A stretch of DNA of 64,000 nt from Tetrahymena thermophila SB210 (taxonomy: Eukaryota; Ciliophora; Oligohymenophorea; Hymenostomatida; Tetrahymenidae): the NCBI RefSeq assembly GCF_000189635.1, contig NW_002476280.1:1-64000 (forward strand). Direction: 5' to 3'. A model generated the notes under the pieces. That model was not told where the DNA came from, searched no databases, and saw only the letters and a list, made by a program, of their open reading frames with translations. Both the position numbers and the translations under genes were made by a program. Each line of letters begins with the position of its first letter. Positions within the stretch are counted from its first letter, which is position 1. Below, piece after piece: positions 38,942-64,000 of this stretch.

Positions 38942-41900
38942 ATGGTTATTAAAGATGAAGAAATCAATTAACAAGAGAAAAAAGCTCAAAAACAAAAAGA
39001 TGGTAAGCTTGAATAAAGCATTGGCAAATCAAGACAAGATTCAAAAGGATAGTTTAAAGAAAATATGATGCGCTTTTTGTTTATATTTATGCCATATACA
39101 CTTATGCTCTTAGTAATAGCCATTGCTTACTCTGTTTCAATGAAGTTTATTTATATCTAAAATATGTAAATATGTTTAAATTAGTCGAAACGTTTGAATT
39201 AAACTTTTTTGGTATATAAGGTAAAATAATTTATAAAGTACTATGCTCAATTATTTTAGAGATTACCTCAAATACATAAATTAATCTGAATAATTGAAGG
39301 TTTCAATTGGATTCTAAAGGATATCATCTTAAACCCAAACGATTGGGTCATTTATAAGAAAGATTTAATCAAAGATTAGCTACAATGACTTCAGTAATTT
39401 ATTCTTCTTTTTTAACTTAGAATTGTTTGTAAGATAAAAAGATACATTAAGTATTTTAGATATTTTTAAGCTTAGAATATGACGAAAATATCAATAAATA
39501 TAGTCTAACTAATTCATATTTTTAGTTACTCATTTATTTTATTCATTAATTACTGATAAAAAAGTATTTAATTTAATTAACATTAGTTATTGACTAAAAT
39601 TTAATATCCACTCAGTATTCTGATAAAAAGTGGAATTTTTTAACTTCAAACGACTTCAACATAGATGATATTTGTCAAGCCTAAGATTATTTGACCTAAA
39701 TGTAGAATTAAAATTAACAGAGCGACTATAATTATTGTAATTTTGCATTTTATTATATTCAATAATACATTATCATCATTTAATCCAATCAATAAATTAA
39801 TCTGCTTTTGTAAAAGTAAATCAGTAGTATTTTACTTGGGGAAACCCTTAGGTAGGGTACTGGAGTGAATTAAGTGATACTCAAAAGCAGTTTATTATCT
39901 CTTAAATGGCTATTTTGTAATCTTTATCTCCTGCTTACCTCTTAAACTAGAAGTATGAAGAAATAAAAACTATGGCTTATTATTTGGTAAATGGGAAAGA
40001 TGGAATGAGTGTAACAACTACTTTAGTGTAAAAATAATTAAATTAATACCATAAAATTGCAATTAAAGAAAAAAACAAATGAGTTATTTTTCAAATTAAT
40101 TAAGATTTTAAGTGTATTTCCTTTTTTTTGGAAATAACTTTCGAAAAATTTAATTTTTCTTAATGTTAATTTTTATAAAATTCTTCTTATTTTTTTAAAG
40201 TATTTTTTGACTTTATTAAATTATTTTAGGCCAAGGCTTTTATCAGATAATTATTGGAATCAACCATAATTTGGAAGCCCTTTTTCCTGCCAAATCAATC
40301 AGAACGGTAAGAGAAGAGGATACTTGTTTAATAGCACATCTTAATTTAATGGTTTTTAATACATGAACCCAAATTATACTTATTGCTTTAACCCTTAAGA
40401 TCCAAAGAGCTAAAATAATTGCATGTGTGAATATGAAAATATCAAACGATTATATCCTTTAGATGTCCGTTGTAGACCATGGTATTTGAGCTCCAATTCT
40501 TCTTCTTATGTGTAATTTACAATTTTTTGATTAACCATTAAAAATTTATATATTATACTTATATATAAAGCTCATTTAGTGATCCTTATATTGATTATGA
40601 TACTAATTCACTTATTTCTACTGCAACATTTAAAGTTGTAAAATAAGACTAAAGTAATAATTTATTTAACGAAGTTACTCTATAAGGAAATGAAAAGGCT
40701 GACGCAGTTCTAGGATTAGATTTCAACTTATAAGAGCTTTAATAAAGATATAAATAACAAAATAATTCTACAACAGAATATTCATATATTGTTTCTGCTG
40801 CAACAAAAAATTTTGATGATTTCTAAGGTAACTACGAATACACAGCTATTACCCATCCACTTATAAAAGGTAAAATCAAGTTATTTTAAATAAGAAAATT
40901 TCAAACAAAGATAAATATCAACAATAATCACTTTTTTATTTTTAAAGCTATTTTCAAAAAATTAGCTTGCCTAAATTGGTAAATTAATTTTGAAAGATAA
41001 ATCTTTATTAAATTTGGTAATATTAAATTAATTACCTTACAAAATTCATTTTATATAAAAACTTTTATTTGTAAATTTGATTTATTCTTAGATATTTACT
41101 TATAATTAAAGTTAAAAATAAGAGTTTTGTTTAATTAACTTAGTTAGATTAACTATTTATTTAAATAGTGAGAAAAATTAATTTAATTATTAATATAATT
41201 ATTATTTTTTTCAAACTTAAATTTATTTTACATAAAATATTTATTAAAATTCAATTGTAAAATAGATCAAAAAGCAAAAATATATGAATTAGAGTTCTAA
41301 AATTCAGCAAATAAAGAAGAAGAAATTGAATTATATTTAAACAAAACATCTTTTATGACAAACACAAATATAAGATTAAATAATTGCACAAATCAACTAA
41401 ATTCTAATTCTTAAAATCATTACGAGTACATAACTAAAAATGGGTAAACATTTCTAACACTTTTTTCTGCTATATAAATATGTTATGGAAATCTTTACGA
41501 GTAGAAAGTACTAACTGTAGGATATATTGCTCGGTGCATAGCATAAACTGTTTATGACAAATATATCTCCCAAATCACATAATCGATAAAGAGAATGAAT
41601 TAACTATTTACTTACGTTGTAGTTAGTTCTTTTAGCTTTTTATTTATATTGCTTTACTTCATGCTAAAATAACTTTTAATGCATAACTTTGATATTCCTA
41701 TTTCAATTTTAAATAATTTCTTGTAGTCAGCTGATTCTAAGGAGTAATTTTTATATCTTTTATAAATATTTTATGAAATATTTTTATAAATTAGCATTCA
41801 CGAGCTAAATTAGATGATACAAAATGGAAAGTTCAAAACTTAATATGAGCTTTAAAATATTATAACAGCAATTAATTAAATAGTTATTTCTGTTTAAATA

Positions 41901-43516
41901 TAAGTTGAAAAAGAAATGGATTCTGACGAAAATATTGAAAATTTGGATAAAGTAATCCAATAGTATGTGGAAGCAGCCAAAGTTTATTTTCTTGTTGATC
42001 ATAAAATTGGATAGAGTTTATGGTAAATATTTTGAAGAATTAAATTAAATATTTTAACAAATTTTACATTTAGTATGAATAATTTAGGATTTATTCATAT
42101 ATTGAAAAAAGAATATCCAAAAGCTTTAGTTTACTAATAAAAAGCTAACATTATTTCAGATGAAATACTTTAGGAATTCTTTAAGGATCTAGATAACTCT
42201 AAAAGCCTTCCTGAAAAATAAATGTTTTTGTGTAAAAAATTTAATTTATTTATGAATTTGCATGCTTGCAGGAAGTTTTAGTTAGCTTAATTGATTATTA
42301 GAAATATTTCTTTAGGATGTTAAGGATAGGCATTTTAATAGTACTATCAAATTGCTCTTGAGGAAGATAAAAAAGAGCTTTTGCATGATTTTATGATGAG
42401 TTTTAATTAAAATACAAAAAATTCAGTAAGTTTAAGAAAATAAACATCTCTTTAAAATGATTTTTTTGATATGCTGTAAAAAAATAACAAATTTGATAAT
42501 CCAGATTAATTAAAATTATATCTTGATAAAAAGCAAGAAATTTACTAAAAAATAAATAAATTATCACAAAAATAATAAAAGAGTTAAATAGATATAAATT
42601 AAATTATCTCAGTGAATGATGAAAATATCTTATCAGGGAAATTTTATGAAACAAAACAAAATTTGGAATTAATTTAATCTCCATAAATTAATTCAAGAGA
42701 GAGTCTAGTTAATTATCGAAGTAGAAAATTCTATTTTTCGAATAGATTTTTTGAAAAATAAAACTATGCTTAAAAAGAAAAAGATGATACTAAAATAAAC
42801 GAACTATTTTCAAATGAAAAAAATTTTATTGCATAGGCTCTAGATATCCTTTATGAAAGTTTATAAATATTTTAATAAATTAACACTTAGAGTTTTAATA
42901 AATATAAAAGATATGAAAATAAAGTTATGAGCATGCTTACATTGATCTTAATTTGTAAATGCCATATCATTTTGTAAAAAAGAGAAGTTATAATTGAGGA
43001 AACACTTTAAGTTATTTACAATATATATTAGAATATTAAAACTAATGATTTTATCAGTCTTTAACACAATTAAATTCCTCTAAATGTTGTAATGGCAAAA
43101 TATTACTTAATTCTAGCTTAGATTGAATTATCTAAAAAAAATTATAAAAAATCTCTCAAATATAACTTAAAAGCGTTGAACTTTAATAAATTCCATCCAA
43201 ATTAATTTCTTTGCATTTAATATTCAAATTAGATAAAGAGATACTATGATCCTTTAGATAGTCTTGAGGCTCTCTAAAACATCTACTAAATAATTTAGGA
43301 AGCAAATATAAAGCTTAGCTCTTTTTAATTAGAAACTTTGTAAAGCGATATTTAGAACCTTTAATCAGCTGCCTAAAATTACTGTAAAATATTTATAATT
43401 TTTATTAAAAATATTTTTTTTTAAAATGATAATTAATTTAAAAAGGTGAGCTAGGATTTTTTGAGGTTTTTTTCAAATTAGAGAAGTGGGCAGATACAAA
43501 AATAATTCCTTTGTGA
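38942..43516 (+). CDS. Cache-domain membrane receptor with TPR-like cytosolic region, copy 1
   Basis: First of four tandem paralogues; multi-exon. Exon 1 (38942-39165) encodes a charged N-terminus and the first transmembrane helix (MPYTLMLLVIAIAYS). Extracellular exons follow to about 41500, with conserved DYLKYINQSE, YFTWGNPQVGYWSELSD, a Cys pair, RCRPWY at 40468-40485 and DPYIDYDTNSLISTATFKV, the pattern of a dCache-type ligand sensor. CYGNLYEQK lies just before the second helix (about 41615-41670). HNFDIPISILNNFLQ starts the cytosolic part, which has the DH..GQSLW signature and then TPR-like helical repeats (NNLGFIHILKKEYPKAL) from 42074. The last intron (43384-43445) leads to a short exon with FFEVFF. 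No kinase or cyclase domain is present. The full intron set is not resolved. Confidence 0.8.
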
Positions 43517-43771
43517 CTTTAAGAAATATTATGATAAAGGATAAATATTCTAAAATAACTTGAACTAATTAAAACATAGAAATTTAAATACTAATTTTGG
43601 TATTTTATTTATTAAATAATTTACATATTTATTTATTTATAAAAATTATTAGTTGTTGATTGAAAATAAAAATATTAAAAAATAAATTAAATTGATTTAA
43701 ACTACAAAAAAATATATTGAGAATACTTTAAATAAGTATATAAAAAATTAATTCTATCTTAAATATCAAAT

Positions 43772-46256
43772 TCAGAATTAGTTAGTTGAAATGACAGCCA
43801 TTTTTTCAGTATCGCTTTATCTAATTTATACTTTTTAACGAATTTTGTTTTCTAACTTAATTTTAAACCATAAAAATGCAACTAGATTGCAAGCAGCAAT
43901 AAAACCTAAAATCACAAAGAAAATTATGTACATCTTTTTATGTTCATCTTCGTTTTCGTTTTCTTTAATGTATTAAGTATTTTATTTATTATCTTCGATA
44001 ACTGCTTCGTTTACTAATGGTTTGTAGATTGTGAAGGAATCAAAGACTTCCAAAGAATCTGAAAGAATATGCTCAAAAACTAAATGAGTAGAATTTTTAA
44101 CAGTTACTGTACTAAATCCTAAAGTTCTATCGCTTGTAACTGTAAGCTATCCTCCAGGATCTAATTATTGTTAAGTTTAAAATCAGTTATAAGAATATAA
44201 TCAAAAAAATTTTATTTTACATCCTGAATCCTTAGGGAAGTAATGGTAGGTACCACCTGAACCATCAACTACATAAACTGGAGCTTCAGGTGATTCATAC
44301 AAAGAGCAACTTTTCATTTTGCACTATTCTGTTTATTTGAATTTTGGTTATCCTTTATAATTAGGTTAAATTCTTTCATAAGCATGAACATGTCCAGCAA
44401 GATAAATATCAACTTTGTGTTTATTTAAAAGATCTTCTAACTATTTTTTTCAAAAATTTTAATTATTTTTCAATCAAAACACAAAAAAAATAAAAATTAT
44501 TTTTAACATTCCAAAAATATTATCCTTTCTTAGGAGATATTATTTCCAAATAAACATTAATCTCAAGTAAAGTATAATTAAGAAAAATACTTAATTTTTA
44601 GAAAAAAATCAATAATTTTTAATCAAAAGTAAATAAAATAGTTTGCTTTTAATTAAAATCAATGATTAATATAAATAAAATATTTTTTTGTATTGAAATA
44701 AATTTATCTAAATAAAAAATATCCTTAATAATTATTGGAAACACTTAAGTTATAAAAATGAATGAATGAATTAATATTTACATCAGAAAATATTTCAGGG
44801 TTTGAATAACAAGCACTGGTAGCAAAATCTTCGAAGCAGTAGATATTTTAGTGAGAATAAACAATAGACCATCTATACTTGCCTTTCATTTCAGTCATGG
44901 TATCATCAAACCATTTAAGAAGTTACTATAACCATTACTTATCAATTCCAATATTTTGATTGGTTTTTGGGTCTTTAATATATTTGTTTGTATTCATTCC
45001 TACAAGCAATAAATCACCTATGCTTAAGGTATAGTAGTCACTTTCAGAAATAGATGATCTAGGATTTCTAAAGAAAGATTTGTAATAGCTATAATTATAC
45101 CATTCTTCGTGATTACCAGCAATAGTCTAAATTTTAATTATAATGGATTTGCATTAAAAATATGTATATGTGAGATATTTATGAAAATAATTACCACATA
45201 AGGAATGGTTGCATAGGAAAATTCTGCAGCTTTTAAGAAGTTTACTCCTCTTTAGCCACTGTCATCATTAAGATCGTAGGCATAATCTCCACCAGCTATA
45301 ATACCAACAAAGTTCTTTCTCTCTTATTTGATCTGTTTTAACAAATAATATGAAAAATACTTAAAAATAAAGAATTTATAGTAATATTACATATTTATCC
45401 ATGATGTACATATTGTCTTTACCAAATTGTCTGTTGCCATATTTAGTATTAGGATTTATATCATAATCAGCGACCCAAGCAAATTTGAATTCTCTTTCCT
45501 TAAGTTTGGAATAGTCAATGTGGTAGAACTCAAATAATCCTCTTTATTTAATTCAAAAATTGTATAAATATTAAGTAGAACTAAATATGAATCAATTAAT
45601 TAATTTATTTACTTATCTTTTAATACTGGAGTAGAGTCATCTATTTTTTATTTTAAAATAAAATAAAGTTTACTAAAAAAAATGCTAATTTATTAATCAA
45701 ATTAGTCTTTGTAGATATATAGTAAATTACCTGAAAGATAGAAACACTTATAGGAGATTAAAGAATCAGGTTTGAATTTAAGAATAGAAGCATCAAGCTA
45801 ATATTCATATATGTACATTTCAAAATCTTCAGTTCTTGTCTCTGTTTTAGCAATTCCAGTAGTGTCCTTAGGTTAAACTTTTTGATAAAAGCTATATTAA
45901 TTTGTTAAAAATTTGATAGTTTTTTTTACAGAATCTCTTGATTTAGACAGGATTCAAGGTTAATTTAACTTTTAAATCCAAGCTTGTATAAACTTCGCAA
46001 TAGTTTTTGGGACAATTAGCCTTATTTTTTAAGTTAGTGTTGAATAAAATTTTAATAATTTTACTTTAGTAAAGTAAGTAATAGTATAGTCGTGGCGGGT
46101 AGCTTTTAGAAGTTTTTCTTTGTCGTATTAAGTGGAAAGATCAAAATTATCTCCTAAGCTTAGCTTAATTCCATTAGGTTAGCAACTTGGATCAGTGCCT
46201 TAGGAATAAATCAAAGCACACAGACTAAGTAAAACTAAAATTAAATATTTTGTCAT
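43772..46256 (-). CDS. Purple acid phosphatase (metallophosphoesterase) with C-terminal membrane anchor
   Basis: Multi-exon on the minus strand; first exon 46256-46065 with a signal peptide, second starting at 46020, stop at 43772. The catalytic block is clear: AGGDYAYDL (metal-binding GDxxY), AGNHEEWYNYS (GNHE), an IVYSHQNIYC segment carrying the next His, and LAGHVHAYERI (GHxH). Together these ligands build the Fe/Zn dinuclear centre of purple acid phosphatases, which hydrolyse phosphate monoesters at acidic pH. After the enzyme domain a linker and one transmembrane helix (MYIIFFVILGFIAACNLVAF) precede a basic cytosolic tail, so the active site should face the lumen or outside. It lies between receptor copies 1 and 2 and ends about 255 bases from the 3' end of copy 1. 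Internal exon boundaries are only partly resolved. Confidence 0.88.
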
Positions 46257-47856
46257 TTTTTGGTTTTTTGAGGCTTTTAGAAAATTTTTTAATTAATAAA
46301 TTATAAATAATTGATTTTTTCCACTTAAAATAATAACCTTTTAAGTATTAATTATGAAAATTAATTTAAAAAGAAACATAAAATTAAAAGGTTCTACTTT
46401 TTAAAAAGAGAGTGTGGCATCAAATTTTTTATTACAATTTATCTGTTCTACAAACATATTTATTTACTTAACTTTTAATGAATAACAAAAATAAACCACA
46501 GTTTTAGTATATTAAGTAAATTAAGAAAGCTTATTTTCTTTTTTAAGTATCAAAAATAAGTAAAATATATTTCTAAAGCTCAAGTAAATTTTCATAATTA
46601 ATATAAATTAATTTTTAAAACTTAAATCTCTAAATTGTTACTACATAAAAAATATAAAAAAATAGCATAAAAAAATCACATCATAATTGGTTCTAGCATG
46701 CTTTTTATTTAGTTCATTAATTTTATTATAATAAAATAAGTTAAGTATGCTTAACTTTGCAAATAGACTAATCAATCTAAAATTTTTTACATTCATAATA
46801 CCTATTTATTATTAAATATTATGTTTTAATATAAAAGTTTAATTTAATTTATGGACCCCATATTAATATTTAATAATAATTAAATTTATGATTATATATA
46901 TTTAGTAATATTCAAAGATTTTCTATTAAGTGCTAGTCTAAAAATAAATACCATTAATAGATAGATAAATAGATAAATAATACATATATTTATTTTCATA
47001 AATTTTCAATTTTTTATTAGAATATTTCTAATTTTAGCTTATAATCATTAACTAAGATCCATCAAATTATTTTATGTGATTCTTATGAAAGTTGAATGAT
47101 AAATTTGCCTTTTTAAAAATAATTTTGCTTTTAGTACTTAACATAATTCATATCTTAAGAGGGATTTTATTAATTTTTAAAGGGATTTAAAGATATTTTC
47201 AAATTTAAAAATAAAATTTTAATGATTTTGCTTAAATGGTATGAATTAAGATTTCTATTTATAGTATTAGCATTTATTAGTATTTTAATTTATATTTATT
47301 TATCTTAATAGATCTATAAAATAAGAAAGTAAAGCTGTGGTAAAAGGCTTGGATATTACTATTTGGGGTATTTAATAATAAATTTAGCAGTTTATTTTAT
47401 TCAATTAATTTATGGAAGTAGATAATTTATATTATTTTATAAAATTTAATATATTGTAAAAAAAATTTTGAATAAAAAAGTTGAAATTATTTTAAAAATA
47501 CTTTTAAAATAATGTGAAAAAATTGAATATCCTAAAAAATTTAAGCTCAAAAAACTGTAAAGATTAAGTTAAAATTTAGTTAACTATATCTATTAAATAT
47601 AAATGTGATCGATTTTATTTTAAGATAATGAGTTTTTTAATAAGTAATTGACCTACTTTAATATATTCAATTTCTTTAATTAAATTATTGTTCGTTTGTA
47701 AAATAAGGTCCAACAAAACTTAATATAAAGACATTTAAAGATAAAAAGCAAGGATTATAATAAATAGTTTTTTTAATTAAAATGTAGAAAAATGAATAAT
47801 ATTACAATACTAATAGAAAGATCAAAAATGGATAGTTTTTATGGAAATACGTTAAC
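46257..47856. other. AT-rich intergenic spacer, divergent promoters
   Basis: About 1.6 kb upstream of both the acid phosphatase (minus) and receptor copy 2 (plus). It contains a GATA-type repeat (about 46960-46978) but no supported gene. Confidence 0.5.
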
Positions 47857-50800
47857 ATGATGAGAAATGAATTAATTTAGAATAAAAAAAAAGATAAAAA
47901 AAGTAAATGTTATATATTAAAGCTTAAATGCAAGTACTTTTGTAAATTATCTGATGAATAATGTAGATTTATTATTGTTTTTGGCCCTTTATGCTTATCT
48001 TTATTCTTAGGAGTTTTATTATATTTGGGGATGTGCTAGTTTCTCTACCTCTCTCAAATGTAAATTCATTTTATTTTTATTAATTTATATAATTTTTTTC
48101 ATTCTTCAATGAAATTATACACATACTAAAGGAGAATTTATTAAAAATTTAAGGTAGGATATGAGTAGAGATTATATTAACGATGCCAACCAAAACTATT
48201 TACTTTTATTGGCTTAATCAAAGGTAAACACAATAAGATCTAACTTATAAAGGATGGCAACCTCTTCATAAATATTAGGGAAGTTTAGCCAAAAATTGTA
48301 ATCAAAAACTCTAGATCAACTTGGTAAGAAATTTATATAAAAAGCGAAAATTTTAGCACTTCGAAACAATAAAGATATTCATTCATAAATAGTTAATTTT
48401 ATTACTTTAATATTAATATTAATAGTAAGTTGGTAAAGCTAAGGAGGTGATTTAACTTAAATGCAGTAAATAAATGGGAAATATAATTTTTTAGTTGCTA
48501 ATGACTTCAATCAATAGGATCAGTGCTAGTACATTTAATATTTCAAAAATAAAATCCAACAAGACCCAACTGCAACTTAAGATTATTGTAAATAAATTTT
48601 AAAAAATATAAAATCAAATAATTTTTTGTATTTAGATAAGTAGTAATATTTTGGATGGTCTTCACCATAAATTGATAATTGGAGTGATTTAACTTTAGAA
48701 TAAAGATCGTTTCTTCTGAAATAATCGCTAATAAATGTATTTTTTACATCTATGCAAGTCAATTAATAAACTTAGTAAATTTTTCCAAATCTTTATAATG
48801 TGGTAAGAAAATCTGATTCACTGTAGTCAAGGATATAACCAAAGTATATATTTTTATTATTACTTATTTAAAAATAATTAATTTAATTTCAATTAATTTT
48901 GTTACTTTTGCTTGAATTTGAAGATAAAACTTTTATTTTTATTATTAACTAGGGAAAGATTAAATCAACAAAATATGTTTTGGTACTAATTTCCGTACTC
49001 AGATTTTAGCCAAATTTGTTCTTATGATTCAAATCTAAAACACTACTCTTACTTAAATGTAGATCAATTTGATGGATTTCAGAATAAAGATGAATTTAAT
49101 TAAAGTTGTAAAAAAAAAGAAAATTCTCCTCAGTGTTCATGTATTTATCTTTAGAACAAAAGACTCTATCCAATCGATTGGAGGTGCAGAATTTGGTATC
49201 AATAAGCATCATAAAATTATTACTTGTAAAATTTAAAAGATTTATAAAATTATTTAATTAAATTTTTACTACTAAAAGAACTATCTCTTCTATGTATATT
49301 GATATAAACTCTGGAAATGCAATAAACAGCTTTGTTTTTAAAACAATATCTGCATCATAATCTCCTTAAAATATAAAGGAGGAGTAAAATTTATCTGAAG
49401 ATAGTATAAGTAGTCTAGATTTGAACATAAGCTAATTGATATAGAATGAGAACTAGTAAAGTAGCGAAGATCAATACTCTCTAATTTTTCTTCCTTCATC
49501 AAGCAATGATAGTGATTTTAAGATCTTTTATCATCCAAAGTATAAAAGTAAGTTTTCCGTTTAAAAATATAAAGAAATTAAATATTTTTTAGATTAGTAA
49601 AATATAGAAACTCTTCTATCATTGCAGTTTCATAACAATATGAATTAGTATAATGACTTCTTAGAATAAGTTTCTGAATACATGAGCTAGACTTAGAATA
49701 GAAAATAAAATTGCAACTTTAGCTAAGAGGAAGGATTTTAGTTTCAAATGATTGTTGAAGGCAAATAATACTTTTCTATAATAGAGAGAATGTACCTTTG
49801 TATTGGTAATATTGACTAGTAAATATCTGTTTTATTTGGTTATTTTGTTAGAGTGATTTCAACTGAAATTTCATCACAAACAGTTAATTAAATAAACTAA
49901 AGAATGTTATAAATAAAGCAATACTATGCAATAGGAACAAGTTTAGCATTTTTTTTTGTGCTTGCTCTGATGTATACACTTTTAAAATACTTTCTCAAAT
50001 ATAATTTTGAATAACCTCTTAATATCTTAAATACTTTCATCCAGCAAGCCAAACCGAAGGAGTAATTCTTTAAAATTTTAAAGTTATTTCATATTCATTT
50101 TCTCTATTAAATTAAATATAATCAGCATTTATTTGTTCTATCAAATGATTCAAAACTAGTAGATGTGTACTTAGTATGAGTTGAAGAATCTATTATAAGC
50201 TATCAACGATGTTGTGATTGGAATTCAAACAAAAGTTGAGGAAAAAATTGAACAATCTTCAACTTGTTTTGATGACACATAATATTTTAACTAAATTTTT
50301 CAAAAGTATATTTAAGGTCTGAAGACATTTAAATCTGTAGATCATGTGGCTGGAAAAGGGCTATGGTAAATAAATAAAGTTTAAGTAAAATACATTTAAT
50401 TTTACAAATTTTTTACAAGTTATATAAATATAGGCAATTTATATGCACAAAACAATAACTTCATATAAGCAATAGTGTTCTATTAAAAAGGGTTAGAAAT
50501 TTCTGAAAAAGTACTCTTTGACACAAAGCTTGAGTAAAATGCAGGAAATTTTAATCAAAGAATTGAGAAAATGTGTTCAAATAAAGCTCTTAAAAAATTT
50601 ATGAACATACTTGCTAGTAGAAGATATTTGTTTGGAAATGCTTTAGCATGCAGTTTATTATAGCAAGAAGAGGATGATATTATATTCGATAACCAATACA
50701 ACATATAAAATTCTGAAAATAGCAAGATGAAGATTAACTCATCCTTAAAAAAACTTATGAAAACTTAAAAAGAAAAAGATTTAGGAGATTAAATATTTAA

Positions 50801-52041
50801 TTCAACACTTTAATAGATTAAAAACCAAAAAAGCTTACCTACTGATAAATCTTAAATTTAAAGGATAAAGACAAATGAATTCAATAATTCAATTAATATA
50901 TCTATTTAGTTAAATATTTAGAAAATTTAATCAAACTAAATAAAGCGAACATTTACTCCTAATTCAAATAATAGCACATTTAAGAAAGCATTAAAGAATA
51001 AACATAACTCACTTAGAAATTCAAATTTACCTAGAATATTTTTAGATAGACATACTAGCTAAGCAGATAAAAATGGAGATAAGAAACAAAACAAATTAGA
51101 ATAAAATAAGAATAATTTAAATCAAAATTTTGAGAAAGAGTTCATCTTAAAGAGAGGTTAGTTAAAAAATCACTGTTACGGGAATTTAAATTTCTTAATG
51201 ATGCTAAAGAATGACTTGTTCCCTTAAAAAGAGAATTATAATTAACCTCTTCCTAAATATTTAATTAGAGAAGAAGGAGAGTTTAACATTTCTATTGTTG
51301 AAGAATGCATAGACTAATTCTCAGAGTCTCAACAGATTTTTTATAGCCTTTCAAAACAATCTTCTAACTTGTATGAGTGCTACTATTACGAAAGCATTTC
51401 AATATTAATTTAACTTAAATGCTTTACATGCTAGCTAATAATTTAAAATAAAGAAAAGATAGTACTAGAACACCTCATTCAGATCAAAAAGCAAATAAAA
51501 ATTTGTAAATTAAACTATATAAACCTGCAATCTCTCCTGAATTCAGGATAAGCTTATATTCCATTTCATATTATTAAAATGAAGTATTATCTTGTCAAGG
51601 GATTACTTTTCTACAAGTTAAATATTTATCATAAATCTCTGTACAACTTACTCAAATCTTTAAGTGTAAAATTTGAAAAGGATCATGCAAAAAATAGCTC
51701 TATAAAATACAAGAAAGCAGAATAAGAGATTTCTGAGTTTTATGATGTATTCGATGTGAGTTGCTGTCTGAAAATTATCCATCAGATAATAAAGAATCAG
51801 AATATTTAGCTAAACTCGCTACATAATAAATATTTAAATGACGATTTGAACAGCATAAACTTAGATCTAATTTCAAAATGTAAATAAATAAATATGTTTA
51901 GAGTTAATGTTACATTAAAAAAATTTTTTTTATATTTCAATAGAAGATATTTATTTTCAGGAGGTTTTCTTTAAAGAAAAAGAATTAAATAATCTAAAAA
52001 GAAACACAATTTTTAAAAAGCCAAGAAATTAAAGCAATTGA
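47857..52041 (+). CDS. Cache-domain membrane receptor with TPR-like cytosolic region, copy 2
   Basis: Starts at the first of two adjacent ATGs. The basic N-terminus is followed by a transmembrane helix (VFGPLCLSLFLGVLLYLG, about 47970-48025). The extracellular part carries DYINDANQNYLLLLAQSK, NGKYNFLVANDFN, YFGWSSPQIDNWSDL and RCRIWY at 49182-49199 (Ile replaces Pro of the family motif). MYLCIGNIDQQ replaces the CYGNLYEQ block, so this copy is the most diverged here. A second helix (LAFFFVLALMYTLL) leads to KYNFEQPLNILNTFI, NDVVIGIQTKVEEK and the DHVAGKGLW signature. The cytosolic region is Lys/Asn/Gln-rich and helical. The last intron (51880-51943) is followed by a short exon encoding QEVFFKEKELNN and TGA at 52039. 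Exon boundaries inside are not fully resolved. Confidence 0.78.
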
Positions 52042-53036
52042 TTGATTGATTGATATGAGCTTAATTAAGTTTAATCTCAAATGAAGTTTTCCACAAAAAT
52101 TATAAAAATTGTATAGTTGGTTAAATTATTTATCAAAATTAAATATAAATATAATGTTATGTATAGCAGCAGCAAAAAGTTAGTTATTAAAAACTGTAAG
52201 ATCGATCTACTATTTCTTTGGAGGATTAATTGTAAATTGAAATAAGAAAACCACAATGAAAAATAAAAGCATCCAAATTTTAAATTTATTCATTTTATTT
52301 TTCAGAATTTAAATATTCAAATTCATAAGTTTATTTTTTATCTTAAGCTAGTTAAATAGGAACTAGATAGTTATATTTAAAGGTTAATTGAAAGTATTTT
52401 AAGCTTAATTATTGACTTATTAGTCTTCAAATGATAACCTATTTAGTATGTGTTGTAAAATTAAAATTATTGAAATAATCAAATAAAAAGAGATTATTAT
52501 AATAAATAAATTATTCTTCTATTTTTTGATTCGAAGCTTTTTTGCTTAATCAACACAAATGATGTGTTTTGTTTTAAATAGTTAAAAATTTTAATTTTTA
52601 GCATAAAATGCAAAATTCAAAAATTAACTTCCCTAATTTCCATTATAAATTTTAAGAAAATATTATAATTTTAAAATACTTAGTAAAATCTGTAAGTATT
52701 GTAAAAACTGGAGTGAGAGTTAAGTGTTTTTTTTTTTTAATGATTAAATTGATTGAATATTATTAATTTGAAGAAATGGTTCCTTCCATATAAAATAGGA
52801 GTATACTCAATTAATTAACTAACCATATGGTTAACAAAATATTAATAATTGAAAATTTTTTAAAGTATATTATTTATATTTATAGTAAATTAAGATAGTG
52901 TATTAAACAAGAGTGGTAATTTTAGTATATATCTATCTATCTATACACCAATTAATACACTCAAGCAATTTCCACTAAGATAGAAATCTTATAACTGATT
53001 TCTTGCCAAAAGATCTATCAAGGTTAATCAAAAATT
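52042..53036. other. AT-rich spacer between receptor copies 2 and 3
   Basis: About 1 kb. It begins with a GATT tetranucleotide repeat (about 52037-52053). On the minus strand an ATG at 52293 opens a short hydrophobic sequence (MNKFKIWMLLFFIVVFLFQF) followed by Asn/Pro/Lys residues. It could be a tiny membrane protein, but the frame then runs without a natural end under copy 2, so I do not call it. Confidence 0.4.
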
Positions 53037-56000
53037 ATGAGTAAATTAAGGACCAGAATTTTAAGCTACATATTTTGTAAGATGAAGTTTAGCGAGAAAA
53101 ATAAGCGTTAATTGGAACTGTTTGTTCCTTTCTTTATGGTTCTTTTACTTGTGATATTCATATTTTCAATTATGATTAAGTTTGTCTATCTTGACAAATT
53201 GTAAATTAATTTTAGATATTAGTATAAAATATGGGTGTCTTAAAATTTTAAGATACTACAAATATATTCTAATGCATTAGCCGATGCTATAATTGTCATT
53301 TCTTGTAAAAAATAGGAAATAAAATATCTAGGATCATTTTGTAGATAGATTCAAAGATTACATTAGCCAAGTAAATAGAGCTTAGTTAGACTACTTAGCT
53401 GTTTCATATTAGCAAGTTATTCTTTCATAATAGACCATAGGACAATTTATTTAGGAAATTACTAGCAATAATGTTTAATTAGCAGATGTTGGTAATTTTC
53501 AACTTAGCTTAATATCATATTTCTTAAAATTGCGCAAAATTAAATAAATTATCATTATGAGATAAAGAGATATTTATTTTTAAAGATTGACTAAATCTAT
53601 TTAAATAATATTTTAAAAATATAGTAACTTGGAAAGGTAGCCGTCTTTATGACAATAGCCCTGATGCTTCTTAAAAATATAATTTCATGAATTTTAATAT
53701 GTTTTCTGCTAAAGAAATTTGCTAAAAGAAACAATTTCTTTCTCTGCCAAACAATTAAAGTAAAACAAATATAATATAATGATAAAGGCTTTTTTTATAA
53801 GAAAGTTTAACAAATTTTAATTGTTTTTTATTTAAATACTTGAAGTCAGTTAATTATTTGGATGGTATAACTGGAACGAAGATTAGTGGTTTTAATTAAG
53901 TCTTGATCAAATTGATTTTTTAGTAAAAACTGACCTTGCCTTCTCAGTCTTCAAGGCTATCCAAGCAAACTAATAGTATAAAAGTGTTCAAATTATAGAT
54001 GGTTATGTTTAAAATTCTTCAGATGATACAATTTATGAAGGAAATCCAAAGTAAATATTTTCATATTAATATTTAAATTTATGTATTTAATTAACAACTT
54101 AGACTATGGCTTTACTAAAGTAATAGCTTTTGGAATTAAAAGAATTATGGTGGTCCATTCATTTATCCTAATAATAATTCATGTTAAAATTAAAATGAAT
54201 ATAACCCTCCTCCAGATTATAATGGATTTTATTAAATAAACTCTACAAATTAGCAATGCTCGTTAAAATCATCTACATCAGAATGTAATTGTTAATATTA
54301 CAATTAGAAAAGGTTTTTTCCCTTAGTATTTCGTTGTAGGCCTTGGTATGAATCTTCTATTTAAAATGAATACGTGTAATTTACAAAGATAGTTTTTATA
54401 AAATAATAACAACTAATGTCTTTTATTAATATTTTTATTTTTCATAGGACACTCTCTTAAGCATATATAGATCTATATTCTTCTTAGCAAATAATGACTA
54501 GCAGCTTTAAAATTGTTGATAGTTCTTAAACTAAAAATTTGGATTCTTAAAAATAAGCTCCTCCAAAAGCTGTTTTAGGATTTGATTTAGAGTATTCTTA
54601 ATTTAATGATTTTTTATATGGCTCAAATGATTACAGTTCTGGTCTTTATTCTTATCTAGTTGCTCCTAAAAGCCCAATTTATCAAAATGATGTTTAATAA
54701 TCATAGGAATACGCTGCTATTATACATCCTAATCTCTTTTCTAGTTCAAGTAAGCTTCTTCCATAATAAATTATATTTAATAAATATTCAATACATCAAT
54801 TTTAATTAATTATTTAATAGAACTTGGATAAATTTAAGATATAATTGAGTTAGAATTTTAAAATGGAAATCAAAATGAAATTTTTTAATATAAATCATAA
54901 CTGGGATCTATATTTTTGAATAATAATATAAGAACAAATGGATGCAACCTGACTCAATCGAGTAACTAATAGTATTAGCTCAACATTTAAAAAGATGGCT
55001 AAAATTACTACACTGTAGTTAAAACTCTACAAGTATGCTATGGAAATTTATATGAATAGAAGAGTATCGTTGTTGGTTATTTAGTTACTAATTTAGCTAG
55101 TAGCTACTAGCAAAAACTATACTCTCACATTGACTAAAATCTTACAAATATGCAAACTTATATTGTCATTGCACTATTACTTACTTTTTTTGCAATCATC
55201 ATCCTTCTCTATTTGCTAATGGAAAGGTTTCTAAAATACAATTTTGAAGAACCAATTTCCATCATTTCTTCTGTTATGAATAAGGCAGATCCATAAATGT
55301 AATTTATTAACATTTAAATTTTCTTAGATTATTTTCTAAACAAAATATTTATTTATTACAAATTTATGAAAACATTTTAAATAAATATTTGAAATAATTA
55401 ATTTGTTTTTTATTTAAAATCTCTATTTTTTAATGAAAAGTATTTTAATGAATATATATTATAAATTTAACTAGGATTTACAGGTTCCATTATGTAGTAT
55501 AAAAAGATGAACTAAAAATATCTTAGGAATTAAAAAACTTAATTTCTGCGATTATTGAAATAATTAGTTTAGTTGAAGAATAGGTTTAAGATTCAAATCA
55601 AAATAATGATAATGAAATAATCTAACGAAATTATCAGAGAGCTTTACAAACTTTCGAAGTAGTAGATCACTAAACAGGGATTGGTTTATGGTAAATATTT
55701 TTATATACCGCATTTTAGGTTAAAGGTATTTTTTATTGAAAAAGCTTGAACAATTTAGGAAACATAAGAATGATTAAGAAAGATTACAAAACAGCAATAT
55801 AGTATTATAAATAAGCTTGCTTACTTTCGAAAATCTAATACGAAGAAGAAATAAAAAAAGATGAGATAAAAGTTTCCAAAAATGACTATTTGCTGAAAGA
55901 TTCAATTTTTCCTTAAGATTATGTGAAGAAAAAATTTATGAGAATTCATGCCAGTAGGAAATATCAACTAGGATCAACAATCCTTAAATATCTAAAAGAT

Positions 56001-58770
56001 CAGAGTTAATTTATGTTTGTAAATTAGTTAATAAATGATATGGCATTATAGGAAGATTTGCAAATAATAAATGATACAATACTAAAGAAAAAAAACTTAG
56101 AATAGATTCCTATCCCACAAAATTAGGAGCTCTAATCTAGGAAAAAATCTACAAATATAAAAAGAAATAATATGATGGGCGGAGCTGCGTCTTTGTCTTA
56201 GTTACCCAATTTAATTATGACTAAAGAAGGAAATCCAAATATAATTGTTAGTAACTAATCTCAAAAAAAAGTAAATTAAATATCAATAAATACTAAAATA
56301 AATATATTTTTATTAATTAATAGCAACTCATAGGATCTTTTTAAAATTAATTTTCTACTCCTTATATAGTTAATAATGTTTTTATTAATAATCATAACAA
56401 CATTCCTTACAGTGCTAATAATTTATAAAATACTATAATTTAAAACAATCCTGCTCAATTAGCAGATTTAGATAAAGAAATAAATTTGTAAAATTTAAAT
56501 AATTTGGTATCAGCTAATCAAAATAATAGCCAATTTAATAATGGAAACATTACCTTTTAAAATATGAATCCGTAAATAGTTAACTAATTAAATTTTGGAG
56601 ATGAGTTGCATGATAAATCTTTTATGGGTATTTCACAACGACAAAGCTAATCAAATTTGTTTAACAACAATTATAACAATGGTAACTTTATTAGCAATAC
56701 AAACAGAATTTCTAACAGCAACCACAAATTGCAGAATATAAGTTTAAATAATAACATTGGGAGTAATAATTTAAATATGAATAGCAACTCTTAAAATATT
56801 AGATTTAATTCTAAGAGACAGTCTTCGTACGTTAGAAAACTGCATTCAAGTGGAAATGTTATGGGTAATGATTTCTAATAGTCTAAAGGAATCAAAAATT
56901 TAAATAAGGAAATTCATAATGCAGCTAAAGATGCATAAGATGAAGAAGAAAAAGCAAATAAATTACTCTCTGAAAGTTTAGAAAAATTTTCATTATAAAA
57001 TTATCCACATTTTTTTACTGAGTCATTTGCTGAAAAATATAAACCTCTAATATTAAGCAATATAGATAAATCATAGGCTCTTTTTGATGTGTATTTTCAC
57101 TCATAAAAGATGTATAGCACATAAGCTATTGAGCTTCTAAATGAAAGTTTCACTATTTTTAACACATTAGGAGATTATTGCTCTGATAGTGAAAAAAAGG
57201 AAGCTCATGAATACTATGGATTCTCTATTCTAACTTTATTAACAATTACAGAATTGCACATTTTACTCAATCAATAGTCAACAATAATCGAACCTCTACT
57301 GGCCTCAATTAAGAAACAAATCTTTACTAAAATAATTCCTCTCGAAGCTTTAGACTTAAATAATATAATTTCACAAATGAATCATTATAATCTACACTAG
57401 CAGTATGTTAATTAGCAACAATTAGTTATAAATAATAATCTTAACACCAACAACTCATTTAATGTATTATTCAATTAGTATCCATAACCAAGTATAACAA
57501 CGATGCTGAATATAGAAAATAATATAAATAATAACAGATTCTTGACAGAATAAAATATAGATATGAATTTTTTTGATACGAATGCAAATAACAATAACAG
57601 ATTAAATAGTTAAAATACATTTTTCAATGTTTTACCACAACTCGATTAAAATCAGTAAAGCAGTGATAAATCCAAAAGACTTACAACTCAGTCAAGTAAC
57701 TCAGCTCAACAAACTGTATAGCCTCTATAAAATCAGCAATAATACCAAAAACTAATCAAGTAATAAAGTGCCACTTTGATGAGAAATAAAACATTTTCAA
57801 TCAATGGAACGCAAACAAATATTCCTATAAATGTACCTTTAATTCAAAATACTACACTAAGTAACAATACACAAAATTAAACATCTACACATAATTTATA
57901 TCAATATTAAAACGTATCTTAATTCAATGATCGCTATAGGTAACCTACCGATATAAATGATATGACTATATTAAAATAAAATAATCCCTATCTAATCAAT
58001 AATAGAAGTAGTAAGTTTAATGAAATAAAAGAGAATACTCTAAATTCAGATATTTTATTGACAAAATACTACATTTTAAAGGGAAATATCAGAATGTTAC
58101 AATTCAAATACAAAAAAGCACTTAAAAGCTTTGTTAAAGGAATAAAATATTTCTTTCCTAAGTTATAGTCCTTAGAAAGGATATAAACTATAATGAAAAA
58201 TGCATAAAATGGAATACATAAATTGGAGGAATCTCCCTAAACTTTGTCTATAATACATGAAGAAAGTACAAGAAATCAGTAAAAATATTTTTATGATCCA
58301 AATGACATTCTAATATGCTTAGAAAATATCAATCATATAGTTTAAGAAGCTAAAATTTCCTTAAACGAAAACTAACTAAATAATCTGCTTAAAGACATTT
58401 AAACATTAAAAAAACAGTCTTCTGAAACAGGTAACTAGTTTTTAATCTTTTGTTTTTTAATTTTAAATCATATGATAAATTAATTCGATAAGAAAAAAAT
58501 AATTATCTTATTTAGTCATTATTTTTAAACATTTTAGACAATTTTTTTATTGTTTAATAAGTAAATTCATCTTTTTAAAATTGAGATTCTATCAAAATAA
58601 ATTTGCAAAAAAATATCCATTTGATTTTTGAAAATAAATAAATTTGTTGCTAATTTTATACACATTTTTTTAATTTAATATCAAAATAAATAAAAAATAT
58701 TTGATTTTTTTTGTTATTAAAAGTAAGCTTACACTTTTTTGAAGTTTTCTTTAGAGACACTCTTGATTGA
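53037..58770 (+). CDS. Cache-domain membrane receptor, Asn-rich cytosolic region, copy 3
   Basis: Largest complete copy. N-terminal transmembrane helix FFMVLLLVIFIFSIMIKFVY (about 53130-53195). Extracellular Cache-like region with RCRPWY at 54332-54349, QAYIDLYSSQQIMTSSFKIV, VLGFDLEYSQFNDF and EYAAIIHPN; TLQVCYGNLYEQK precedes the second helix (about 55150-55225). KYNFEEPISIISSVM and the DHQTGIGLW signature begin the cytosolic part, then a TPR-like hairpin (LNNLGNIRMIKKDYKTAIQY). Unlike copies 1 and 2, a very long Asn/Gln/Ser-rich segment (about 56200-57960) is inserted between TPR-like blocks, which resume at ILKGNIRMLQFKYKKALKS (about 58075). A 293-base final intron (58431-58723) leads to a short exon with HFFEVFFRDTLD. 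Internal introns are only partly resolved. Confidence 0.8.
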
Positions 58771-59413: not shown

Positions 59414-62400
59414 ATGGCAAAATAGTAAAGTATAAAAGATAAGATAATTAGTAAAAGTAACACACCAAAGGAGGTAAAAAAATAAAAATGCTTCGGTTTC
59501 TCAGAGTCTACGAAAAGATAGTTTTCCGTTTTTTTACCATTTTGTGCTGTTTTAGTTTTAGTTATTCTAATCTAATCATTATTAATATAGCTAGTATACC
59601 TATAGCCTTTGTAATTAACTGAATATTTATTATCCTACAATAGCAGCTTTTTTAAGGAAAGAGTATATCCAAACTGCTAAAATAATTTTAATTAATTTCT
59701 TAAATATTTTCTTTTTGCCCTATAAAATTTACAAATAAATACATTTATAATATTAGCATATTATGATAATATTAATTTATATCAAAAATACACTAGATAA
59801 AATAATATTGAAGATGCTATATGGGGAAAATACTAGTAATACTTGTAATCAATAGCTTATGGAGATAAAGTTACAATTATGCTGTCTTATTAACGAGTAG
59901 TTACTCCAATTTAGTCGATATCTTTATTTGTAAAAAAGTTAGTTGTAAATAAAGTTAACTTAGCTGATTTAGGTAATTTTAATTTATGATTTTTTTATTG
60001 AAATATTAAAGATCTAAAGTATATTTTGATTCATTAATATGTGTAATTACAAGCACATCGTTTAATCACTAATATTTTCAAACAACAATAGCTAGAGGAA
60101 TTTTAATAACATGTTAACTAATAAATTATATAAATAAAATATTGATAGACATCTTTATATTAAATAGCTAATTGGAATCCTGATCAAACAAACTCATACT
60201 CTTATAGGTAAATGCAATCTTCATAACCAAACTTCAGAAATGTAAATGATTTCACAGCAGCAGATTTATGTCCTTTTGATAGCTTTTATAATGATAATTA
60301 AGGAAGTTCAACAGTATAAGAATATAGTAATTCATAAAACATCATTTGATAAAAGAAATAATTATTCTAAAAAACTTAAATTATAGAAAGAAGATAGTAC
60401 TTTGGATGGTCTAATTGGTAGCAAAATATTTGGGAAAGCTTAACTGAAGAATAGCGAGATTATTTATTGTATGTTGATATGGCAATGTCTGTTGGGAAAA
60501 TTATATATTATAATTAAAAATTTGAAGCAATTCAAAAATATAGTTTTTATAGTGCTCGTGAGTAAGACGATACTTGGTATGGCTTCCATCCAGGGTAATT
60601 TAAGCTCTTTTTTCAAAAACTCTATAAAAAATATGATTATTTCAATAGTTATTTAATAGGATAAATATGAAAGTTTTTGAAAAATCTTTTAAAATGTAAA
60701 AATTAATTAAATTTTTTTGGAAATATATTTAGAGAAAGATTAATGAGCAAAGGAAAATTATGGAACACTAAGGAATTCGGAGGTCCTTTTAGTTGTAACA
60801 TGTAATCGAATGGAGGATATTTAGAATACCAATTACCCAAATCGGATTATTTTAATGGGTATGATTTTAACCGTTAACCATGCGCAAAGACCAATTAAGG
60901 AACATGTTAGTGCCCATATTATACTTAAAATAGAAAATTTCCAATTGTTTGGAGATGTAGACCATGGTATTTAGCCAGTGCTTAAAACGCTTATATGTAA
61001 CTTCAAAATATATATATATAATTTACCAATAACAAGAATATTTAATAAAAATTATTATTCTTTTGTAATGGAGCTAAATTAATTTAATTAAATTTAAATA
61101 ATCTAAAATTGAATAATCAATATTCGCTATCTCAATACATTTTTCTTTCAAAATTTTTTGAAAAAAATAAATGAATAAATACAATTAATTAATAACAAAT
61201 TATTATAAAAATCTTTATATAAATAAGTACTTTTGCTGATGCATATACAGATGTAAATACAGGCTAATTGATAACTACATGCAGCTTTAAGGTTGTAACT
61301 TAGTAAGTTAATACAATAGATGACGAAAATTAGCAATCTCCTTATATGATATAAAGTATCGACTTAACTCTTGGTAATCTTTAATCTATGTATGGAAAAG
61401 GTGACGTTAACTAGGAATACTCTTATCTTGTTGCTCCTTTAACTTTTAACTATGATACAAATGTTGGGCATTATAATTATACAGCTTTTTATCATCCTTT
61501 AAATAATGGTAATTATTTTGGAAACAGTTTTAAATAAATTAACTATTTATTTTTTTTAAAGGCACGAAATAGACAATTCTTTATTTAGAATTTGCTAACT
61601 CCTCAAATTAAGATGAGGAAGTGAAACTATACAAAACATAAACTGCATTCATGTTAAACGAAAATATTAGAGAGGATGGCTGTAGCCTTTTTTCAAGCTC
61701 TCCTTCTTCGGGAATAGATAACGAAGATTCATCAAGTTCATCTTCTTCTCAACAGTAAAGTGATAATATTAAGGGGATGTATATTTAAAAAAATGGAACT
61801 AATTTCTACACAATATTCTCAACTATTAAAGTATGTTATGGAAACCTTTAGTAACAAAAAAGTTTGGTTGTAGGTTATCTTGCTAGAGCTATATCTGAAG
61901 ATAGAAAGTATTAACTCACTTAAACTATTAGAAATAATTTACAATTTATGCAAATGGTTATCATCTTAACATTAATTGGATGCTTTTTGATAATATTTAC
62001 AATATTGTTTTTTGTATTGTAAAAATTTTTGAAATATAACTTTGAAGAGCCAATATAGATTTTATCTAAAGTTATCATGGAAGCAGGACCATAAGAGTAT
62101 TTATTTACTTATCTATGAAAAATCTTAATTTATTTTCTTAAAATTAGAATTCATCAACTACAGAATGCGATTGAAAGTGGCTAAGTGAGGACTCAGCTAG
62201 AATTAAAAAATTTGTTATCAGCTATTAATAATGTGGTCATAGGAGTTCAGAAAAAAGTTTAATAAGATCTTGATGATAATAATAGCAACAGCAATGATGA
62301 TTAATTATAGGAAATAATATTTAAAGATGCTCTTTAAACTTTTTAAACTGTTGAGCATAAACTAGGCATGGGAATGTGGTAAAAATTTAAATCAAATAAT

Positions 62401-64000
62401 ACAAAATAATTTATTTCATAAAAAATACTTAAACAAGAACAAATGATGCTTTCTTTTATTATGTTAAATGTATCAACATTAACTTGTTAGTTTTTTGCAT
62501 AAATTTTATTTGCATAATAAAATATCTGATTTCTAGGTCATTAAAATGAATTAGTAGAAAAGTTTTAATAAATCATATTTGCATTCAAAAGCAATTATTT
62601 TGCAATAACTTAATTTTATTATTAATTTCTTATGAAATAAAAAAATAATCCTTTAACTATTTTAAAATGCTCTTTTTATCAATTTTGCTTAAAATGATGA
62701 ATCTAAACAATTTTATTGAATATAGTTTAAATAATATTGGGAACATTTACATGAGAAAAGGAGACTACAAGACAGCTTTAAAATTATATAAATCTGCTTT
62801 TTTGTTGTCTTAGGAATAGTACAAGGAAGAAATTAAATAAAATCAAGATGATTAGTAGCATAAAAATAACCATGAATTTTTGATAACTGATTCTACAAAA
62901 AGAAATTTTATGAGGATTTATGCATGCAGACAATATTAGATTGGTTGCACATTATTAAAAGCTGCTATTTGTTCTATTAAAAAATATGACACTGTCATTG
63001 AAAATTAAATTAATTAAATTATTTATGAGGAAACTTCTGCAAATTAATTAATATTAAACGAAAGAATTGTCTCAGATGAAGATCACAATAGAACAGAAAA
63101 TAATAATTATTTAATAAAATCAGAAGCTAGTCAATAAATAAATGATGCAAATTTTTCTTAAAATAGGAATTTATTATAACCTTCTATCAAAAACCTAGAA
63201 GAAAAAGATAGAGAGTCTCCAATAGTTAAAAAGAGATTGAAAAACAAAAAATCAAATACAGAAATAAGTACATAAAAAATAGCAACATTTAAAAATTTGA
63301 ACGCAGTCAAGGAGCAGTCATAAGAAGAAATTTACCCTAAAAATGTTATTAAATCTGATAAAAGAAAAAAAACATTAATTAAAATAAATGAATAGCACTA
63401 AAACCCTCCAAATTAAAATCAGGAAAAAGATGAAATTTAATCAAATGAAATTGTTAAAAGAATATCTTAAGGAATGAAAAATAGCGGATATGAGAATGAG
63501 AACGTTTTTTCAGATCGTTATTATTAAAAGGTGTAACATAAATTAAATAACTCTCAAGAAAATTAAGGAAATCCTGTTTTAATGAATTAAGGAGTCATCT
63601 TTGATGATAAAAATAGTTACTTAATGTAGGCATATGATTTATTTTTCGATGTTAAATCTATTTTTGATAAGCTAGGAGATTATTGTTCATAAAACTAATA
63701 CTATGAAGCATATGAATATTACAGTTTATCAATAATAAATCTTCTCAAATTAGCTCAGTGTTAGTTACTGCTTGGATGTAGAAATTTTGTAGTAAAAGAA
63801 CTACTTAATTAAGCAAAAGAACAAATTTAGCTCAAAGTTAAAAGATTTTAAAATTCGTATGCTAACACTATACCTCAAGATGTTCTTTTGTAAAAGTACT
63901 ATTTATTGAAAGCATAGCTCAGAATTACTGAAGAAAATTACCCTAAATGTCTTAAAAATTTATTATAAAGTATAAACTTTTGTTTTGATTTACGTTCAAG
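59414..64000 (+). CDS. Cache-domain membrane receptor with TPR-like cytosolic region, copy 4 (3' end beyond window)
   Basis: Incomplete at the right edge. The basic N-terminus precedes a transmembrane helix (FLPFCAVLVLVILIQSLL, about 59530-59585). The extracellular region has YFGWSNWQQNIW-type blocks near 60400, several Cys, WRCRPWYLAS at about 60950-60979, then ADAYTDVNTGQLITTCSFKVV and YTAFYHPLN. KVCYGNLQQQKSLVVGYLA (about 61830-61890) leads into the second helix (about 61940-62010). Cytosolic KYNFEEPIQILSKVI, NNVVIGVQKKVQ and the DHKLGMGMW-like signature (EHKLGMGMW) follow, then a TPR-like pair (NNIGNIYMRKGDYKTALKLY) from about 62725, a Lys/Gln/Asn-rich linker, and further helical repeats up to 64000. 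No stop is reached. Confidence 0.78.

Follow-up and report, generated by a model that had tools for sequence, protein, structure and literature searches.

Four receptor-like genes in the window

The window analysed here, the first 64 kb of contig C234 (131308 bp) of the ciliate Tetrahymena thermophila SB210, carries four related, intron-rich genes on its forward strand, which encode putative receptors with a Cache-type ectodomain between two membrane helices and a TPR-bearing tail. Long open frames appear in this DNA once TAA and TAG are read as glutamine (ciliate code, table 6). Splice models were obtained with a home-made predictor, which was trained on the window and then steered by named peptides, including the evident membrane helices; the models are computational, and they leave short terminal exons and the 3′ end of gene 2 in doubt. 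Gene 4 extends past the window, and its model was completed with flanking DNA. For comparisons beyond the window, the whole genome (101 Mb, 445 contigs) was searched.

All four predicted proteins share a common order: a short N-terminus, a first transmembrane helix (TM1), an ectodomain, a second transmembrane helix (TM2), a conserved juxtamembrane block, one TPR, and a helical-looking tail (Table 1). In each of them, the ectodomain is 484-494 residues long and lies between two strong hydrophobic helices (Kyte-Doolittle 2.08-3.18); the tail of gene 1 contains a third, weaker hydrophobic stretch (1.59). The juxtamembrane block displays a proline shortly after TM2, followed by an ELxNLIxAI-like helix. 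Past the TPR, the tails consist of low-complexity inserts and conserved helical-looking blocks, and a C-terminal YDP-like motif closes genes 1, 3, and 4, with YDV in gene 2.

The four proteins are pairwise 28-38% identical, so the duplications look old. Their likeness is not due to chance, since a tblastn search with gene 3 finds gene 4 at an expectation value (E) of 1.8e-26, gene 1 at 2.5e-20, and gene 2 at 4.3e-15, with paralogues on other contigs at values down to 7.6e-25. Seven introns, with phases 2, 1, 1, 2, 2, 1, and 2, occur at equivalent places in all four models; one more intron (phase 2) appears in the models of genes 1, 3, and 4, at a place where the gene 2 model reads through in frame. 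Four same-strand genes with a shared receptor order had been proposed earlier from the letters of the window and its open reading frames, a proposal that we refer to as the sequence-only reading. Splice models, the two strong helices in each protein, and tblastn bear this out, confirming for the predicted proteins a two-helix architecture with an intervening ectodomain, a juxtamembrane block, and a TPR tail. The proposed tandem arrangement holds in that the four genes are clustered on one strand, but a calcineurin-like phosphoesterase gene (PF00149, E = 4.4e-7 for a piece joined by eye), which lies outside the receptor family, splits genes 1 and 2 on the opposite strand.

Table 1. Predicted receptor genes of the window, their features, and the intervening gene (contig coordinates; JM, juxtamembrane)
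Feature	Position	Strand	Remarks
Gene 1	38942..43516	+	10 exons in model; about 1116 residues; last short exon uncertain
Gene 1 TM1	39074-39130	+	splice model
Gene 1 Cache-matching part and membrane-proximal ectodomain	40230..41603	+	introns included; family profiles against PDB, splice model
Gene 1 RCRPWY	40468-40485	+	splice model
Gene 1 TM2	41604-41660	+	splice model
Gene 1 JM helix	41844-41876	+	YELQNIITAIN
Gene 1 TPR	42075-42158	+	
Gene 1 C-terminal YDP block	43242-43361	+	
Phosphoesterase gene	44409..47147	-	calcineurin-like; outer bounds of open frames
Gene 2	47782..52049	+	most divergent; about 1150-1250 residues; 3′ end uncertain, frame open to 52049
Gene 2 TM1	47971-48027	+	
Gene 2 Cache-matching part and membrane-proximal ectodomain	48953-49927	+	as for gene 1
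Gene 2 RCRIWY	49182-49199	+	
Gene 2 TM2	49928-49984	+	
Gene 2 JM helix	50175-50207	+	
Gene 2 TPR	50424-50504	+	in-frame intron before 50424 inferred from paralogues
Gene 3	53037..58584	+	11 exons in model; about 1531 residues; long inserts rich in asparagine and glutamine
Gene 3 TM1	53121-53177	+	
Gene 3 Cache-matching part and membrane-proximal ectodomain	54103-55161	+	as for gene 1
Gene 3 RCRPWY	54332-54349	+	
Gene 3 TM2	55162-55218	+	
Gene 3 JM helix	55524-55553	+	
Gene 3 TPR	55746-55829	+	
Gene 3 C-terminal YDP block	58289-58408	+	
Gene 4	59414..64000	+	on to about 64315 of the contig; about 1186 residues
Gene 4 TM1	59531-59587	+	
Gene 4 Cache-matching part and membrane-proximal ectodomain	60733-61956	+	as for gene 1
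Gene 4 RCRPWY	60953-60970	+	
Gene 4 TM2	61957-62013	+	
Gene 4 JM helix	62197-62229	+	
Gene 4 TPR	62727-62810	+	

The ectodomain and its putative ligand pocket

A Cache identity for the ectodomain, which is split over several exons, is supported by comparison of family profiles with the PDB; single-protein scans for Cache with Pfam and NCBIfam were negative or weak. When a profile of the four window ectodomains was used, ranks 1-4 were taken by ligand domains of methyl-accepting chemotaxis proteins (MCPs), among them 6pxy (E = 2.6e-4) and PctA (5ltx, E = 0.009). With a profile of 13 family members, the nine best matches were MCP sensors and one diguanylate cyclase sensor, at E-values from 2.8e-5 to 0.8: 6pxy at 2.8e-5, 6iop at 2.9e-4, PctA at 6.4e-4 and 7e-4, the diguanylate cyclase sensor at 0.015, and the rest from 0.042 to 0.8. 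Five of these matches thus lie below 0.02, and the tenth is the unrelated MacA (E = 1.3). We take the matched structures to be dCache folds. These profiles show homology between the predicted ectodomain and dCache sensors, centred on the signature of the ligand pocket. A closer bacterial source was sought in a prokaryote collection with one peptide pattern, a narrow test in which none of 23 pattern matches was confirmed.

Pocket positions were mapped through the PctA alignment of the family profile, and 17 members were read; these had been found partly via the signature exon, which favours conservation of that exon. In PctA numbering, R126 and W128 are present in 17/17 members, Y144 in 15/17, D146 in 14/17, and D173 in 15/17, and the equivalent of Y129 is tyrosine in 13 members and phenylalanine in four. 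Seven ectodomain cysteine columns are conserved in 16-17 of the 17 members. According to PMC10104139, R126 bonds the amino-acid carboxylate in dCache sensors, D173 is common to amine receptors too, and Y121 is among the positions that distinguish amino-acid from amine motifs. Retention of R126, W128, Y144, and D173 suggests a carboxylate- and amine-bearing ligand, for example an amino acid or a derivative.

The tail

Pfam finds one TPR per protein, with best E-values of 0.0053, 6e-6, 2.7e-6, and 2.6e-5 for genes 1-4, and a TPR was read in 17/17 family models. The TPR region postulated by the sequence-only reading is therefore present as an element in each protein, but Pfam recognises a single repeat, which exceeds the curated cut-off only in gene 3 and stays clearly below it in gene 1. 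In line with that reading, which saw no kinase, cyclase, or methyl-accepting output, Pfam-A (E ≤ 1) detected no kinase, cyclase, MCP, or other enzyme domain; the scan covered gene 4 up to the window end, 87 residues short of its C-terminus, and gene 2 up to its final stretch. It gave no VWA domain either.

Family size and evolution

Family members were counted from the signature exon RCR(P/I)WY in tblastn tables; for large families, such counts are lower bounds. The first family, to which the window genes belong, comprises at least 26 genes on four contigs: 15 on C103, six on C214, one on C208, and the four on C234. Strong tblastn matches to gene 3 are confined to these contigs, and weak ones on C323, C434, C40, C17, and C114 are relatives; with a C103 member as query, all matches fall on the same four contigs. 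Signatures are spaced by 4.0-9.3 kb along C103. The juxtamembrane-TPR exon was matched in all 26 genes (15, 6, 1, and 4 per contig), paired by position with the signature matches, and most of these matches run from the juxtamembrane helix to the first TPR helix. The codon pattern RCRPW[YF] occurs at 46 sites genome-wide and its reversed form at none; 24 of the sites belong to the first family (the C208 gene and gene 2 are missed) and 22 lie elsewhere.

A local expansion of receptor genes, as originally suggested, is supported, but the number four understates it: the expansion is far larger and mostly on other contigs. Its proposed link to a telomere fails. CCCCAA repeats occupy bases 2-19 of the contig, 39 kb from the cluster, and whole-genome searches gave no match in the contig's first 39 kb; telomere-associated expansion is hence rejected. 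The suggested paralogue count on the rest of the contig was also carried out; the four-gene profile run over 63001-131308 matches only the end of gene 4, and no further member was found by this search in the remaining 67 kb.

Ratios of nonsynonymous to synonymous substitution (dN/dS) in the ectodomain, membrane/juxtamembrane, and TPR regions of three recent pairs are 0.22-0.44; for the C103 pairs, the TM2-juxtamembrane values were computed with some read-through intron sequence, and one of the TPR values is based on just 94 codons. The three pairs are under constraint, and the ratios argue against pseudogenes. In a tree of 17 members, three pairs are supported at 100/100; recent groups are well supported and deep forks poorly resolved. 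The C234 genes group weakly (73/31), and gene 2 and the C214_118k member sit on long branches, so we draw no history beyond recent local duplications. Gene expansion and tandem duplication in Tetrahymena, TPR genes included, are known in general (PMC6564038).

A second dCache family and relatives with VWA domains

One of the 22 sites outside the family, on C130 at 745 kb, reads YDPRCRPWY, including a tyrosine present in PctA. This single sequence, joined by eye, matches the same Cache-type structures in the PDB as the first family's profile, at best with E = 2.9e-8, animal CACHD1 (8s7c) at 0.002, and PF22673 at 2.6e-4, below the cut-off. Used as a query, with matches within 1.5 kb merged, it reveals a second family of about 50 loci, 47 of which cover the signature (19 on C134, eight on C53, seven on C130, five each on C323 and C434, and two each on C324, C52, and C94). 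At 16 of the 50, each a different locus, a matching TPR block follows 1.6-2.8 kb downstream on the same strand (E = 3.7e-6 to 0.029), and from this spacing we infer that sensor and TPR block would be joined in one transcript. These 16 are part of 30 juxtamembrane-TPR matches outside the first family, the other 14 lying elsewhere. Together, the two families amount to 26 plus about 50 loci over 12 contigs, some of which hold one or two; sensor and TPR block are both seen at 42 of the 76 loci.

Two relatives, one at 787 kb of C114 and one at 341 kb of C40, have TM2, the juxtamembrane block, and the TPR in common with the window family; in both, the TPR is followed by a VWA domain (PF00092, E = 2.7e-11 and, for a partial match, 1.5e-5, both over the cut-off). 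The four-gene profile aligns with the C40 protein over a stretch that starts in the proximal ectodomain and includes the TPR, at an independent E-value (i-E) of 1.2e-15, with a large bias correction. The window family ends about where the VWA domain of these relatives starts; likeness of the C-terminal YDP motif to the C114 protein is weak (i-E = 0.47). A locus on C179 (391 kb) matches the VWA stretch of C114 (1.4e-10). Because a matching juxtamembrane-TPR block is also found behind 16 or more of the roughly 50 second-family loci and, together with VWA, in at least two relatives, we read it as one signalling module, tandemly expanded, that would serve many sensors.

Comparison with known systems

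Bacterial dCache chemoreceptors, such as PctA and its relatives (5ltx, 6pxy, 6iop), likewise have a helix, a Cache ectodomain with an RxWY...YxD...D pocket, and a second helix. The family described here differs from them in the lack of a detected MCP signalling domain or detectable HAMP, in its TPR/helical tail, in seven conserved ectodomain cysteines, and in the loss of Y121. Animal alpha2delta and CACHD1 are surface proteins with Cache modules that associate with channels; their VWA domain is extracellular, and their tail is short or absent. They resemble the present proteins as eukaryotic Cache surface proteins, and two relatives here combine VWA with a related receptor body; in the animal proteins, however, VWA is extracellular, whereas here, where present, it follows the TPR. 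Other Cache sensors of the genome are the dCache_1 loci at 95-109 kb of C9 and at 995 kb of C17; their PF02743 matches (E = 1.3e-6 to 2.3e-4) all stay below the cut-off, and the four-gene profile does not match them at E < 0.01. The Tetrahymena chemoreceptors of the G-protein-coupled receptor (GPCR) type (PMC3226668, PMC5497023) are also candidate ciliate surface sensors, of a different architecture. A search of the open-licence literature on Cache, TPR, HAMP, and VWA in ciliates and on chemoreceptors found no paper on Cache-TPR receptors among the records listed, which does not show their absence from print; the word 'cache' is absent from the text of PMC6564038, on Tetrahymena gene expansion, and PMC9901441 has no ciliate term.

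Proposed function and alternatives

The explanation that we favour, and to which we assign a probability of roughly 0.6, is that the window proteins are ligand-gated two-helix scaffold receptors, perhaps for amino-acid-like compounds. The segment between the helices would face outward, and a small ligand would bind in the membrane-distal Cache pocket. Binding would move TM2 and the juxtamembrane helices, which would change what the TPR/helical platform binds and thus its recruitment of effectors; because ligand-driven helix movement would act in this way on the platform, the output would be of a scaffold type.

Several observations weigh against this explanation. No Pfam Cache model is matched by any of the four window proteins at E ≤ 1; PF22673 matches five of the 13 members at that threshold, at best with 0.0072, and the unrelated TssO reaches 0.0056 in one member. 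The PDB matches span only 35-108 residues, around the RPWY-YxD motif. In genes 2, 3, and 4, N-glycosylation sequons have a higher density in the tail than in the ectodomain, and the two sides have similar total numbers of cysteines, so neither feature supports an outward ectodomain. The ectodomain evolves no faster than the tail in the three recent pairs, which gives no hint that specificity is diversifying. At 34 of the 50 second-family loci, the search (E ≤ 0.05) detected no TPR block. Finally, Y121 is kept in 0/17 members (leucine in seven, isoleucine in seven, valine in two, threonine in one). Its loss argues for an altered specificity, so that the pocket appears retained but altered, and because Y121 is missing we do not file the family as amino-acid sensors with the PctA motif.

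The proteins might instead be obligate co-receptors, with the TPR tail docking on a separate membrane enzyme or channel. This is a serious possibility, if short of even odds, and overlaps with the scaffold-receptor explanation. No enzyme domain was found, TPRs bind proteins, the VWA-bearing relatives point to complexes, and the second-family sequence matches CACHD1, which like alpha2delta is a channel-associated animal protein. Against it, no partner gene was found, although no search was aimed at one, and VWA lies here on the TPR side, whereas in the animal proteins it is extracellular.

A further proposal concerns the relay and is compatible with scaffold receptors: the juxtamembrane block would be a diverged HAMP domain, as in a bacterial chemoreceptor with a swapped output. 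Its location after TM2, its conserved proline, and its helix pattern ELxxLIxAI agree with this, and when six E. coli HAMPs were compared by hhalign in sliding windows, the best windows fell on TM2 and the juxtamembrane block (E = 0.083-0.092; next best elsewhere, 0.17), values that are not significant. Nor is the alignment of the 17-member block with HAMP (E = 0.18, or 0.07 with two relatives added). The Pfam HAMP model found nothing in the scanned pieces at thresholds of E ≤ 1 or 10, nor in the six frames of the genome at E ≤ 1, while the genome-wide search was positive in 12 of 14 control genomes. The spacing from proline to glutamate, counted by hand, is 34 residues, against 28-29 in what we take to be the usual HAMP. 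We regard a diverged HAMP as unlikely; the block appears to resemble HAMP in layout only, and no test gave a significant match.

It is improbable that the proteins have a structural or adhesive role (in cell recognition, mating, or food-particle capture, with the TPR tail as an anchor to the cortex) and a vestigial Cache pocket: long inserts rich in asparagine and glutamine, conserved cysteines, and the lack of a detected enzymatic output would fit, as would the rank of TPR in the top seven domains of Tetrahymena genes that are species-specific and frequently tandem (PMC6564038), but R126 and W128, and in most members Y144 and D173, belong to the best-conserved positions of a family whose window members are about 30% identical.

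A wider view may be put forward tentatively. The ciliate may have rebuilt a bacterial-type chemoreceptor repertoire of some 76 or more dCache receptor loci, which lie on 12 contigs, mostly in tandem arrays, and would be coupled to a single TPR (in some cases VWA) scaffold module in place of a kinase; this would be its main system for sensing amino acids and metabolites, largely invisible to Pfam Cache models. To our knowledge, the receptors by which ciliates sense dissolved food and signals are largely open beyond a few GPCRs. As a candidate chemical-sensing repertoire, a large receptor set that has a recognisable pocket and shares a non-enzymatic output block would open ciliate chemical sensing to direct tests; it would also be a case of a sensor domain of prokaryote type linked to a novel eukaryotic output.

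Other loci and genes

Three further regions carry related domains. A further Cache gene on C402 (55901-58900; locus L064) matches PF22673 at E = 4.8e-11, over the cut-off, and the family profiles marginally. On C344 (27901-30600; L063), another protein resembles the juxtamembrane-TPR block of the family in the region that follows a membrane helix (i-E = 6.7e-8), with a TPR_1 match at 4e-8. The three neighbouring dCache_1 loci on C9 (95-109 kb, within 86001-122500; L013-L016) are the genome's best PF02743 matches; in the one C9 piece that was scanned, the tail is long and gives no TPR match.

Elsewhere in the window, a single-exon frame at 18404-19942 (-) combines a starch-binding CBM20 domain (PF00686, E = 1.6e-24) with a ubiquitin-conjugating enzyme (E2) domain (PF00179, E = 1.5e-22) and is possibly a glycogen-targeted E2. 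A single-exon protein of 1130 residues at 11029-14421 (+) contains a cyclic-nucleotide-binding domain (PF00027, E = 1.2e-10), and a peptidase C26/glutamine amidotransferase-like protein (PF07722, E = 7e-17) is encoded at 3113-4123 (+).

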